From an uncultured Bacteroidia bacterium (lineage in GTDB: Bacteria > Bacteroidota > Bacteroidia > Bacteroidales > UBA932): a stretch of 64,000 bases of DNA. The position numbers and the translations under genes were made by a program. Positions 12,338 through 64,000 of the stretch are shown one piece after another (position 1 is the first letter of the stretch; the number at the start of each line of letters is the position of its first letter). The notes beneath the pieces are model-generated. The model searched no databases. It saw only the letters and a list, made by a program, of their open reading frames with translations, and was not told the origin of the DNA. The stretch is taken from positions 1 through 64,000 of the forward strand of contig CACXPG010000001.1 of NCBI GenBank assembly GCA_902769525.1, written 5' to 3'.

Positions 12338-14119
12338 ATGGCAAGAGAAATAAAATTCTCCCTTCTGTACAGGGACATGTGGCAGTCTTCAGGCAAATAT
12401 GTGCCTAAAGTAGCTATGCTTAAGGAGATTGCACCGGTTATCATCGACATGGGATGCTTCGACAGAGTTGAATCCAACGGTGGTGCCTTCGAGCAGGTGA
12501 ACCTCCTTTTCGGAGAGAATCCTAACAAGGCTGTCAGGGAATGGACCGCTCCTTTCAACAAGGCCGGTATCCAGACCCACATGCTTGAAAGAGGTCTGAA
12601 CGCACTGAGAATGTTCCCGGTGCCAGATGACGTGAGAGCACTGATGGCAAAGGTCAAGAAGGCTCAGGGAACCAACATTATGCGTTCCTTCTGCGGACTG
12701 AACGACCACCGCAACCTCAAGGGTTCCGTAATCCATGCCAAGGAAGCCGGAATGATTGCACAGGCAGCTCTTAGTATCACCTACTCCCCGATCCATACCG
12801 TAGAGTACTATATGGGCGTGGTTGACAAGGTTGTAGAGTATGGTGCAGACGAAATCTGCCTCAAGGATATGGCAGGTATTGGACGTCCTGCTTTCCTGGG
12901 AAGACTCGTAAAGGCTATCAAGGACAAGTATCCTCACATCAAGGTTCAGTACCACGGACACTCTGGCCCTGGATTCAGCGTAGCTTCCATGCTGGAAGTC
13001 GCAAGAGCCGGCGCCGAGTACATCGACGTGGCAATGGAGCCGCTGTCCTGGGGTAAGATCCATCCGGATGTCATCACCATCCAGGCAATGCTCAAGGATG
13101 CCGGATTCCTTGTAAAGGACATCAACATGAACGCCTATATGGAGGCCAGGGCACTGACCCAGAAGTTCATCGACGACTTCCTCGGATACTGGATTGCTCC
13201 GGGCAACCACCAGATGAGCTCCCTTCTCGTAGGATGCGGACTCCCTGGCGGAATGATGGGCTCAATGATGGCCGACCTGAAGGGATTCCAGGGCGCAATC
13301 AACGCATCGCTGAGAAACCAGGGAAAGAAGGAACTGGATATCAACGAGCTGGTTGTGATGCTGTTCCAGGAGGTAGAATATGTATGGCCAAGACTCGGTT
13401 ATCCACCATTGGTAACCCCGTTCAGCCAGTACGTGAAGAACACCGCCCTGATGAACCTTATGCATATGCTCAAGGGCGAGCCTAGATGGAAGACCATCGA
13501 CAAGGACACCATGAACATGATCCTCGGCAAGATGGGTAAGCTTCCTGGAGAACTTGCTCCTGAAATCAAGGAGATCGTAAAGCAGAAGGGTCTCGAGTTC
13601 TACACCGGCGTTCCGCAGGACGCATTCCCGGACGATCTGCCTCGCTTCATCAAGATGATGGAAGAGGAAGGCTGGGACAGAGGCCAGGACGACGAGGAAC
13701 TCTTCGAGTTCGCTATGCACGAGACTCAGTATCGCGATTACAAGAGCGGCATTGCAAAGCAGAGGTTCGAGAAAGAACTAGAAGCCAACCGCGCAAAGGC
13801 AGGCGCTCCTATCGTCATCACCCGTCCGGTTGTTGAAGTTCCGGCATTTGACGTGGAGAAGATCATGGCCAAGTATCCTGATGCAAAACCTGTACACGCT
13901 ACCGTCAAGGGAGAAGTTGTATGGCAGTACGATGTTGACGACAAGTCAAGCGCACCTGCAGAAGGAAGCGACGTCAAGATGGGCCAGACCCTGTGCTATG
14001 TACAGGCCTTCTACGGAATGGAAGAGATCATCAGCCCGGCAGACGGCAAGCTTGTAGCCATCACCGCAAAGCAGGGCCAGAAGGTCGTAAAGGACGAGAT
14101 CATCGCCTTTGTTCAGTAA
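12338..14119 (+). CDS. oxaloacetate decarboxylase / pyruvate carboxylase-type carboxyltransferase subunit lacking the biotin lysine
   Basis: 593 residues. Residues 1 to about 280 form the HMGL-like TIM barrel of the carboxyltransferase (LLYRDMWQSSGKYVP, ADEICLKDMAGIGRP, and the metal-binding QYHGHSGPG). This is followed by the conserved carboxylase domain (GGMMGSMMADL, YPPLVTPFSQYVKN). The enzyme moves carboxyl groups between oxaloacetate/pyruvate and a biotin carrier. The C-terminal 75 residues have the biotinyl/lipoyl fold, but where EAMKM is expected the sequence is QAFYGMEE, with Tyr559 at the lysine position. The domain therefore cannot be biotinylated in the usual way, and a separate carrier is probably used; none is encoded in this window. 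It stands alone with its own promoter. The stop codon abuts a 119-bp palindromic element. Confidence 0.88.
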   Translation: MAREIKFSLLYRDMWQSSGKYVPKVAMLKEIAPVIIDMGCFDRVESNGGAFEQVNLLFGENPNKAVREWTAPFNKAGIQTHMLERGLNALRMFPVPDDVRALMAKVKKAQGTNIMRSFCGLNDHRNLKGSVIHAKEAGMIAQAALSITYSPIHTVEYYMGVVDKVVEYGADEICLKDMAGIGRPAFLGRLVKAIKDKYPHIKVQYHGHSGPGFSVASMLEVARAGAEYIDVAMEPLSWGKIHPDVITIQAMLKDAGFLVKDINMNAYMEARALTQKFIDDFLGYWIAPGNHQMSSLLVGCGLPGGMMGSMMADLKGFQGAINASLRNQGKKELDINELVVMLFQEVEYVWPRLGYPPLVTPFSQYVKNTALMNLMHMLKGEPRWKTIDKDTMNMILGKMGKLPGELAPEIKEIVKQKGLEFYTGVPQDAFPDDLPRFIKMMEEEGWDRGQDDEELFEFAMHETQYRDYKSGIAKQRFEKELEANRAKAGAPIVITRPVVEVPAFDVEKIMAKYPDAKPVHATVKGEVVWQYDVDDKSSAPAEGSDVKMGQTLCYVQAFYGMEEIISPADGKLVAITAKQGQKVVKDEIIAFVQ

Positions 14120-14238
14120 GGGCTATGGTGCCTTGTAAGGCGCTAATGTTCAACCACATGCCAAAAACACCCCTCGGAAAAAGAGGGGTGCTTTTTTGTA
14201 CTTGCTATAAATCAGCAGTTTATGGAGCACCATAGCCC
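14120..14238. repeat. 119-bp element with terminal inverted repeats and central hairpin, copy A
   Basis: Begins right after the TAA of the carboxyltransferase gene and ends three bases before the stop codon of the convergent hydrolase gene. The ends are inverted repeats (gggctatggtgc and gcaccatagccc, 12 bp). A terminator-like hairpin (cacccctc/gaggggtg with flanking A5 and T6 runs, 14163-14196) is centred on the midpoint of the element. A second copy of exactly the same length and architecture is at 63626-63744. The interior between hairpin and ends is diverged between copies. Confidence 0.75.
14168..14196. terminator. bidirectional terminator hairpin inside element copy A
   Basis: Eight-base-pair stem cacccctc/gaggggtg with a 7-nt loop, A-run before and T-run after. 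It can serve both convergent genes. Confidence 0.8.
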
Positions 14239-14241
14239 CAT

Positions 14242-15105
14242 CTAAACCTGCTTTCCGTTAACATAAAGGCAGATGCCCGTATCCAGACGGCGGTTGAGAG
14301 CCTTTGCGTCCATCTCGAAATAATGGATCGGGAAGAGGTTCTTGGGCCTGATCAGATTGGCGGCCTTGATGAAGTCATCGTCGCTCATCGTGTAAGGCAG
14401 GTTCTTCGGCAGGAAAGCCACATCGATTTCTCCCTGAAGGAACTTGGACCAGGAATGTGCCCTTACGGCTCCAGGAGCAAGCTCGTTCATTTCAGGAATA
14501 GGCTCGGTGTCTCCCGCAAAGTAGATGTCGAATCCCTGCATGGAAATCAGATAGCCGTTGCCTTCTCCCTTGATGTGGAACGGATGTCCGTTGTCTCTCT
14601 TGTAGTTGATGTTGTATGCAGGAATAGCCGTTATCGTAAGGCCGATGGAAGATACGCTGTCTCCGTTTTCCAGAGTAATCACCTTGCAGTGGCGTAGCTT
14701 TGGAATGTTCAGCATGCTCACAAGGTTGGTGGAAGGATCCACGTTCAGAGGATTGTTGTCCAGATCCAGCTTAGGAAGAGGCTTTCCGTCCGCGTCCTTG
14801 GCAGTTCCGGCACGCATTGCCAGAAGGTCGTTCTCCAGGACGGTGCGTACGCTGCGGCTAACTATGAAAGTAGTGTTCGGCATCGCGATCTCTTCAATGG
14901 CCTTGGTGTCGTAATGGTCTGTATGAGCGTGGGTCAGGAAGATCAGGTCGGCCTTCTTGCAGCCCGCAAAGTCAAAGAAGTCTGAGCAAGGATCCACGTA
15001 GATGTGCATTCCCTCCCACTCCATATGCACGCATCCGTGAGCCAGATGCTCGAAATTGACTAGCCCCATCGGGGTGTAGAACGAATTGTAAACTCCGGTT
15101 TTCAT
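14242..15105 (-). CDS. UlaG-like metallo-beta-lactamase-fold hydrolase
   Basis: Cytosolic metal-dependent hydrolase of 287 residues. The beta-lactamase-fold metal motif is THAHTDHYD near residue 80. Downstream landmarks are FAGDTEPIPEM, the Asp metal ligand strand, and FPIHYFEMDA with the last His ligand. The closest family I can name is the UlaG/UPF0173 group, which includes lactonases and phosphodiesterases; the substrate is not predictable. No signal peptide is present. It is convergent with the carboxyltransferase gene and shares the terminator in the 119-bp element. Confidence 0.75.
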   Translation of the reverse strand: MKTGVYNSFYTPMGLVNFEHLAHGCVHMEWEGMHIYVDPCSDFFDFAGCKKADLIFLTHAHTDHYDTKAIEEIAMPNTTFIVSRSVRTVLENDLLAMRAGTAKDADGKPLPKLDLDNNPLNVDPSTNLVSMLNIPKLRHCKVITLENGDSVSSIGLTITAIPAYNINYKRDNGHPFHIKGEGNGYLISMQGFDIYFAGDTEPIPEMNELAPGAVRAHSWSKFLQGEIDVAFLPKNLPYTMSDDDFIKAANLIRPKNLFPIHYFEMDAKALNRRLDTGICLYVNGKQV

Positions 15106-63625: not shown

Positions 63626-63744
63626 GGGCTATGGTATTTTGTAAAGTTCCGAATCTCAGCGATATACAAAAAGCACCCCCTGAATTTCAGGGAGTGCTTT
63701 TTATAATGGGCTGCAACTTAACTGATTGCGAAGCACCATAGCCC
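63626..63744. repeat. 119-bp element with terminal inverted repeats and central hairpin, copy B
   Basis: Inverted ends gggctatggt (63626-63635) and accatagccc (63735-63744). The central hairpin, aaaaagcac paired with gtgcttttt plus an inner ccctga/tcaggg, spans 63668-63702 and is centred on the midpoint. It abuts the TAA stop codon of the minus-strand TPR gene. It has the same length, end sequence and design as copy A at 14120-14238. Confidence 0.75.
63668..63702. terminator. terminator hairpin inside element copy B
   Basis: Long stem (aaaaagcac, one mismatch, ccctga) with a 3-nt loop and T-runs on both strands. It would end the TPR gene's transcript. Confidence 0.75.
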
Positions 63745-64000
63745 TTACAGAGCCTCTCCGGACATCTGTTCCACCACCCAGTCTACGGCTGAGGCGGCCG
63801 GACCTTCCGGTTCCAGGAGCTTGGCGTTGTTGTAGGCTTCCAGAGCTTCTCTAAACAGTTGCTGCCGGCTGTAAAGGTTCCCAAGCAGATACCAGGCGTA
63901 GGAGTTGTTCGGCTCTTTTTTCAGAAGGGCGGAAAGGCTGGAGTGAGCCTCCTCGTTCCGTCCCTCTCTCATAAGAGCTTCTATCTCCACAGCGGTTATT
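63745..64000 (-). CDS. TPR-repeat protein, 5' end outside the window
   Basis: The frame is open to the last base of the window, so the gene is partial. At least 81 residues are seen, with TPR helix pairs (ALMREGRNEEAHSSLSALLKKEP; YAWYLLGNLYSRQQLFREALEAYNNAKLLEP). A GTG at 63990 exists but a start beyond the window is more likely. The C-terminus is WVVEQMSGEAL. Function beyond protein-protein interaction cannot be given. The stop codon is directly followed by element copy B. Confidence 0.7.
   Translation of the reverse strand, partial: ITAVEIEALMREGRNEEAHSSLSALLKKEPNNSYAWYLLGNLYSRQQLFREALEAYNNAKLLEPEGPAASAVDWVVEQMSGEAL

Follow-up and report, generated by a model that had tools for sequence, protein, structure and literature searches.

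A REPIN-like family of palindromic elements of about 119 bp in genomes of rumen Bacteroidales, with a single-strand transposase as its apparent means of spread

According to the portions of the cited papers on which we draw, REPs carry a GTAG foot and are cut nearby by the RAYT (PMC8266576), and REPINs are inverted pairs of REPs that are linked to RAYTs (PMC3116915). PMC3116915 also lists as an open question what saves the association of RAYT and REPIN from dying out. In the Bacteroidetes, the RAYT genes of TnpA_REP subclass 2.6 (Bertels group 5) are flanked by 'atypical secondary structures' without GT[AG]G, copies of which are found elsewhere in the genome (PMC6006769). In TIRYTs, a Y1 gene is found with inverted repeats; most of the TIRYT flanks share the consensus GGGG[AT][CG]A[CG], and 20 of 26 TIRYT proteins belong to subclass 2.1 (PMC3733652, PMC6006769).

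In this study, two elements (copies A and B) were analysed in a window of 64 kb, which is the whole stretch of DNA presented here, and were followed through the genome it comes from (G000, 2.23 Mb) and its relatives. Like the REPINs and BIMEs, as far as the cited portions of PMC3116915 and PMC8266576 describe them, these elements consist of two inverted units that are conserved and a spacer that is less so, and they have a near-constant size, an extragenic position and a predicted single-strand hairpin. A cognate RAYT gene beside the same units is a further likeness, seen here with subfamilies other than that of A and B. The differences from those descriptions are that GYAA boxes are present and no GTAG/GTGG foot, that the outer palindromic end measures about 10 bp, that a putative intrinsic terminator forms the centre in some subfamilies, and that only about 20 places are occupied per genome. 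Because GYAA stands in place of the GTAG/GTGG foot, we regard the elements as REPIN-like in their working and not as canonical REPINs.

The protein found beside them carries, by inspection, the motifs NHFH, YNANNP and WY, whereas NH[LIV]H, YIH[QN]NP and WQ are given for subclass 2.6, and the part of PMC6006769 on that subclass makes no mention of a terminator or a fixed length. Unlike the repeats of TIRYTs in the portions cited, the inverted repeats here bound separate 119-bp elements. The Y1 HUH transposase fold of IS200/IS605 was among the best matches of a structure model with a pLDDT of 55, but there is no multi-copy insertion sequence here, because one gene of the close clade was found per genome in eight genomes. 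In the portions of the literature searched, no RAYT-linked element is described as having an intrinsic terminator built in. We believe that A and B are probably REPIN/BIME-like, non-autonomous elements of about 119 bp, which are dispersed by a RAYT and belong to a subfamily with a built-in terminator; both the mobility and the termination are what we infer from sequence comparison. The known RAYT-element pairs thereby gain a case from rumen Bacteroidales, in which the protein is divergent and the recognition boxes are atypical.

A sequence-only reading of the window had described A and B as palindromes of identical length, and this geometry was right. Each copy is 119 bp long, the inverted ends extend over 12 bp in A but only 10 bp in B, the centre of the hairpin is the exact midpoint in both, and the 15-mer TAAGGGCTATGGTGC, with a stop codon at its start, is present at one edge of each copy (14117-14131, plus strand; 63733-63747, minus strand). 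The two copies fold far better than shuffled sequences on both strands (z from -5.5 to -7.7). A palindrome finder, set to 9-bp ends plus a central hairpin, picked out A and B alone in the window and nothing in three shuffled windows, and its negatives were set aside because it missed seven of eight tested RAYT loci. The Rfam search of the window returned two tRNAs and nothing else. The 12-mer GGGCTATGGTGC occurs at seven places in the genome, compared with none for the reversed control.

Table 1. Coordinates of copies A and B and of their neighbours in the window, and of Y1 transposase genes outside it
Feature	Position	Strand	Remarks
Copy A, whole element, 119 bp	14120..14238	.	Subfamily 1 (GGGCTATGGT ends, GCACCCC-type core); flanked by two convergent ORFs
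Copy A, left end GGGCTATGGTGC	14120..14131	+	Inverted counterpart at 14227-14238
Copy A, GTAA box	14135..14138	+	Last two A (columns 18, 19) invariant across 84 aligned elements
Copy A, central hairpin	14163..14195	.	Terminator call on both strands, + stronger
Copy B, whole element, 119 bp	63626..63744	.	Directly past the stop codon of a minus-strand ORF
Copy B, GTAA box, left arm	63641..63644	+	
Copy B, central hairpin	63669..63701	.	Terminator call on both strands, - stronger
593-aa ORF, carboxylase-like by inspection	12338..14119	+	Ends at copy A
287-aa ORF, metallo-hydrolase-like by inspection	14242..15105	-	Convergent on copy A
RAYT-like gene of this genome	C1:201297-201962		Between elements 201162-201279 and 202058-202175
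Other Y1 loci matched by model R1	L172 (subfamily 1, one decayed end), L120 (both sides), L133, L127 and L132 (weak)		

Further copies, for which a search had been proposed from the window, were found genome-wide, and they form a family of near-constant length for which orthologous sites without the element exist. Five copies of this genome, one of them with a decayed end, align gap-free over 119 columns, and the covariance model R1 was built from them. R1 matched at least 20 distinct places in the genome (E from 1e-22 to 0.1, with 150 of 361 candidates scored); copy B was the best match (E 1e-22), and copy A was matched on both strands with E about 1e-21. Subfamily 1 comprises nine copies with GGGCTATGGT ends and a AAAAAGCACCCC core, including A and B, and subfamily 2 comprises six copies with CGGCGATGGTG ends and a AAATAAGA core (ATAAGA core); five weaker places are of other types by their ends and core. 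At E <= 0.001, R1 matched 17 of 61 genomes, namely 16 of 37 of the genus (this genome included) and one elsewhere, the latter being a single weak match in another family of the same order. The counts for relatives were taken per strand and therefore amount to about two per place. The subfamilies are partly genome-specific: G028 has GGGCGATGG ends with an ATAACC core, and G027 has CGGCGATGG ends with a GCACCCC core. The elements are scattered through rumen Bacteroidales genomes as one family, apparently spread by a single-strand transposase.

For the anatomy of the family, 84 elements of 115-123 bp with paired ends were taken from fetched loci, after two 116-bp matches inside a coding ORF had been removed from 86 paired-end matches; orthologous copies were counted separately. 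Outside the set are G027:C21:56458, which is 124 bp long and has an insertion in an arm, copies whose ends have decayed (C1:234532), the five weaker places of this genome (C3:207752, C5:8874, C4:100782, C11:30089 and C8:105188) and, in G006 and G025, the elements of the ACGTCGTC type. The length was 119 bp in 43 elements, 118 bp in 37, 120 bp in three and 117 bp in one, and each element has palindromic ends, GYAA boxes, TGANNNTCA boxes and a central hairpin. The arms are gap-free in all 84 rows, and where lengths differ, the change falls in the central loop, except for one row in which it falls in the T-run next to the stem; gap-free arms hold for the 84 selected elements only, because the selection rule excluded the copy with the arm insertion.

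The mean pairwise identity was highest in the ends (0.88), fell to 0.73 in the GYAA segments, 0.72 in the TGANNNTCA boxes and 0.56 in the core stem, and was lowest in the spacers (0.35). The end stem was paired in 96% and the core stem in 90%. Double-changed cells numbered 301, where the shuffles gave 142 and the slid controls no more than 106, and the covariation score was 0.309, compared with at most 0.118 when slid; two of the five covariation measures were not above the shuffles (pairs with a double change, 18 versus 19.0; further pair types, 52 versus 49.8). When side hairpins (a cloverleaf) were compared with one long hairpin by the pairing of the boxes, the cloverleaf was better in seven of the 84 elements, the two were equal in 57, and the long hairpin was better in 20. 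The core stem had an identity of 0.71 within a genome versus 0.53 between genomes, reaching 91% in G027, and the spacers were near chance (0.36 within and 0.35 between genomes, chance being 0.25). Within one genome, copies from different loci have diverged from one another, and the seven same-genome half-pairs with at least 86% identity all lie within one locus. Lineage-specific cores together with near-chance spacers may mean either that old copies are held by selection and RAYT co-evolution, or that the ends and core are homogenised.

Some structures around the family were observed besides. In G031, a tandem 15-bp unit equal to the outer end CGGYGATGGTRTCTT lies between the RAYT gene and the right-hand element (L170:1737-1856, seven pattern matches), and extra partial ends with other spacings stand beside elements in G027 and G032. 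A further subfamily in G006:C28 and G025:C24 (L114, L115) has ACGTCGTC-type ends and long perfect side hairpins that give a clear cloverleaf, and in these two genomes the TGANNNTCA boxes are located in those long perfect hairpins; the close RAYT was absent from both in the profile search. Four weakly matching palindromes of this genome (C5:8874, C4:100782, C11:30089, C8:105188) have GTGCCCG-type ends and mostly a CTGTATG/CATACAG-like core, and they are probably another family sharing the same inner boxes.

The lead to the transposase came from like-oriented end pairs about 0.9-1.1 kb apart, which enclose a gene whose product of about 200-220 aa has the motif NHFH; the gene lies between two full elements. 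NHFH and YNANNPVKA (an HUH motif and a tyrosine with NP) are invariant in seven RAYT-like sequences, and the YNANNPVKA tyrosine is the putative catalytic one, going by the motif. The NCBIfam model REP_Tyr_transpos (NF047646) matched with E 2e-6 and 4e-7, at 27.7 and 29.9 bits under a cut-off of 80, and Pfam PF01797 (Y1_Tnp) gave 18.2 bits for one protein versus a cut-off of 23 and no match for the other. The AlphaFold model is of low confidence (pLDDT 55); Foldseek ranks 1-26 were all Y1-type transposases, only one of them with E <= 0.001, and the best PDB matches were ISDra2, TnpA_REP 4er8 (rank 4) and IS608 transposases. A profile search of PDB sequences with the RAYT-like protein returned nothing. 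The gene between the elements encodes a putative divergent Y1 (HUH) transposase resembling RAYTs.

Searched with a profile of six sequences, the close RAYT clade was found in eight of 39 genus genomes, with one gene per genome and an open reading frame. One full element stands on each side of the gene in all eight loci, compared with one of 32 other Y1 groups flanked on both sides (p = 1e-7), the 32 groups standing for 41 loci after overlaps and orthologues were merged. Five of 34 other Y1 loci were matched by R1 at E <= 0.01, mostly with other ends, one (in G004) on both sides and three by a single match, and intact GGCKATGGT-type ends were found beside none of 38 other Y1 loci, some places being counted twice. 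All eight RAYT genomes have at least 12 strand-wise R1 matches, and at least nine were found in five of 29 other genus genomes, searched both ways (p = 3e-5). In G027, which has many elements, the close RAYT was not found in an assembly that is 92% complete. In this genome the elements on either side of the RAYT are of subfamily 2, whereas A and B are of subfamily 1, and none of the close RAYTs found stands between subfamily-1 elements. When named genomes were scanned, seven close loci came up, all in Bacteroidales or Bacteroidia MAGs and four of them titled rumen or omasum, and 14 distant loci in other phyla. The locations of the RAYT recur: by inspection, a Clp-ATPase-like gene is its neighbour in G011, G032 and G004, and a phosphopantetheinyl-transferase-like gene adjoins it in G000 and G003.

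Another Y1 gene was considered as the partner of subfamily 1. The gene of 284-288 aa at C1:233633, near the decayed copy C1:234532, is the only Y1 gene found beside a subfamily-1 copy, and the element stands on one side only, with one end decayed. By eye it is like the 285-301-aa type (L174-L179, L182), where R1 finds no match, and it was not taken as the partner, similar-looking genes in other genomes carrying no element. Palindromes of similar build with GGCTGCCGC or GGTGGTGG ends were observed beside other Y1 genes in G004 (L120:1101-1204 and 2212-2323), G003 (L133:770-881) and G028 (L127:2019-2130), and these are probably further RAYT-element families. Because the GGCTGCCGC-type elements of G004 and G003 adjoin a 298-300-aa Y1 gene, another RAYT clade seems to own a family of similar build; element families of this kind appear to be paired with at least two RAYT clades of the genus, each with its own.

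The occupancy of orthologous sites varies among the relatives. Copy A is present in G004 and absent in G017 (flanks 97-98% identical), G032, G021 and G028, and site A holds another, longer hairpin-bearing sequence in G011, G031, G003 and G027, the site in G003 being occupied by a GGCTGCCGC-type element. Copy B is absent in G028, G021, G017, G003, G004 and G032, and an element of a different subfamily is found at site B in G011, G027 and G031, which makes four of ten genomes with an element at this site, from three subfamilies in all. The groEL copy is absent in G004 and G032, and G003 has a different element without a terminator call plus a plain terminator. The whole element-RAYT-element block is missing at the corresponding locus in G004 and G032, both of which have a related RAYT elsewhere. 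Copy C4:162257 is absent in G017 and G027; in this genome (L055:1250-1290), the left end of the element supplies the C-terminus and the TAA stop of the upstream ORF, and the orthologue in G017 and G027 ends with a similar GATGRTATCTAG and no element. Because this gene end resembles the outer end of the element, the unfilled site may be a target or a scar. Besides copy A, several element copies are common to different species. No base-exact insertion junction was found among the compared sites (A, B, groEL, the RAYT block and C4:162257), and no target-site duplications were seen in the copies and sites inspected by eye. Of the MITE or REP origin that had been suggested from the window, the REP/REPIN-like unit stands, with a Y1 transposase flanked by elements, and the classical MITE, which is moved by a DDE transposase, is less probable, no target duplication being visible by eye. 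These filled and unfilled orthologous sites are now available as an experimental set.

A GC-rich stem followed by a T-run was found in A, B and the groEL copy. A strict terminator test was passed by 34 of the 84 elements, 16 of them on both strands and the others on a single strand, and 68 passed a looser hairpin test. The strict test was passed by 21 of 27 elements with a GCAC core, 7 of 17 with ATAACC, 2 of 15 with ATAAG, 1 of 20 with ATTAC and 3 of 5 with other cores. Because 50 of the 84 have no strict call, including 13 of 15 with the ATAAG and 19 of 20 with the ATTAC core, the terminator is not a property of the whole family; ATAAG and ATTAC are the core types beside most RAYTs. The portable terminator that the sequence-only reading had considered was thus upheld for the core type of A and B (GCAC) and not for the family.

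At the sites A, B and groEL of this genome, the element's own terminator is the sole call. Of the 12 unfilled sites, 10 have a call for a plain terminator, namely all four at A, four of the six at B and both at groEL; the unfilled B sites of G004 and G032 have none. In a control, 11 of 400 random 90-bp pieces of the window were called terminators, the comparison being with random pieces, and gene ends commonly holding terminators. The exchange was not seen for elements without a call, namely C4:162257 and the groEL element of G003, where the plain terminator is kept. By sequence prediction, the terminator of A/B-type elements seems to replace the gene's own. A REPIN-like element that supplies a terminator where the native one is gone from the same site would be a concrete and testable host benefit.

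By heuristic ORF calls, 65 of the 84 elements lie cleanly between ORFs, eight overlap an ORF call, and 11 are at locus edges. The 65 inter-ORF elements are in 31 convergent, 26 co-directional and eight divergent gaps, and the background (the window plus eight long loci, gaps with elements included) has 21 convergent gaps among 110. The convergent excess was significant against all gaps (p = 1e-4) and against gaps of at least 50 bp (p = 0.006), and weak against gaps of at least 120 bp (p = 0.04). The copies had also been thought to be glued to TAA stop codons. A stop lies within 10 bp in 33 of 57 elements versus 25.5 expected from random placement within the same gaps, the observed count being reached or exceeded in 10 of 5000 simulations; the enrichment is modest, and the closeness to stops is mostly a product of short 3' intergenic gaps.

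The explanation that we consider probable is as follows. Each half of the element is one REP-like unit, consisting of an outer end, a GYAA box in the place of GTAG and a TGANNNTCA inverted box, and two such inverted units flank the central hairpin. On a single strand, the ends and the core of the element would pair, GYAA may serve as the guide box, and the divergent RAYT-type Y1 HUH transposase would cut and join the strand and so disperse the copies. Most copies are found in intergenic gaps on the 3' side of genes, with gaps between convergent genes as the commonest setting. In the subfamily with the terminator core, the hairpin would act as an intrinsic, often bidirectional terminator that takes the place of the gene's former one, as the orthologous sites suggest. 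A bolder reading, which we put forward only tentatively, is a mobile terminator system: the elements would depend on the RAYT, the payload in some subfamilies would be a bidirectional terminator, the native terminator would be displaced at gene ends and then lost, and the host would come to depend on the family. The geometry would be held ruler-like while each lineage alters the core sequence in concert. If this were true, host dependence could help to explain why a single-copy RAYT is kept.

It is rather unlikely, in our opinion, that the elements are old and immobile, having spread in the past and now being inherited, with some kept as terminators, while gene conversion or quasi-palindrome correction would keep their ends and core alike. 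Such a history would suit the sharing of copy A by G000 and G004 and of other copies by different species, the near-chance spacers within a genome (36%) and the lineage-specific core stems (71% versus 53%; 91% in G027), but the RAYT frame is open with elements on both sides in eight of eight loci, occupancy differs among relatives at the four sites compared in detail, and the ends and geometry are kept even where the core gives no terminator call. Still less probable is a binding platform with ruler-like spacing for a DNA-binding protein (nucleoid, gyrase or replication related), of which mobility and termination would be side effects. In its favour are the gap-free arms in 84 rows despite near-random spacers and the sequence conservation of the TGANNNTCA boxes, the pairing of which fails to separate side hairpins from the long hairpin. 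Against it, the tight link with one RAYT clade needs no additional protein, RAYT recognition could itself impose the spacing, and the same boxes form part of long perfect hairpins in G006 and G025. That A and B are two coincidental terminators is extremely improbable: terminators with TCAGCGA beside the stem also occur at the element-free site A of G017 and G032, but coincidence is excluded by the copies in the genome and in relatives, the 12-mer count against its control, the shuffled windows and the covariation.

Apart from the REPIN-like dispersal that we favour, two loci with several elements were observed. In G004 (L088:7000-10100), three elements separate short gene blocks, which by inspection hold a toxin-antitoxin-like pair and a nuclease-like gene. 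These blocks are absent or rearranged in G000 (L010, C8:48000-62000), where one solo element end remains beside hicAB-like genes. At L051:1459-2556, an ORF with many KAECDKA-type protein repeats lies between two elements.
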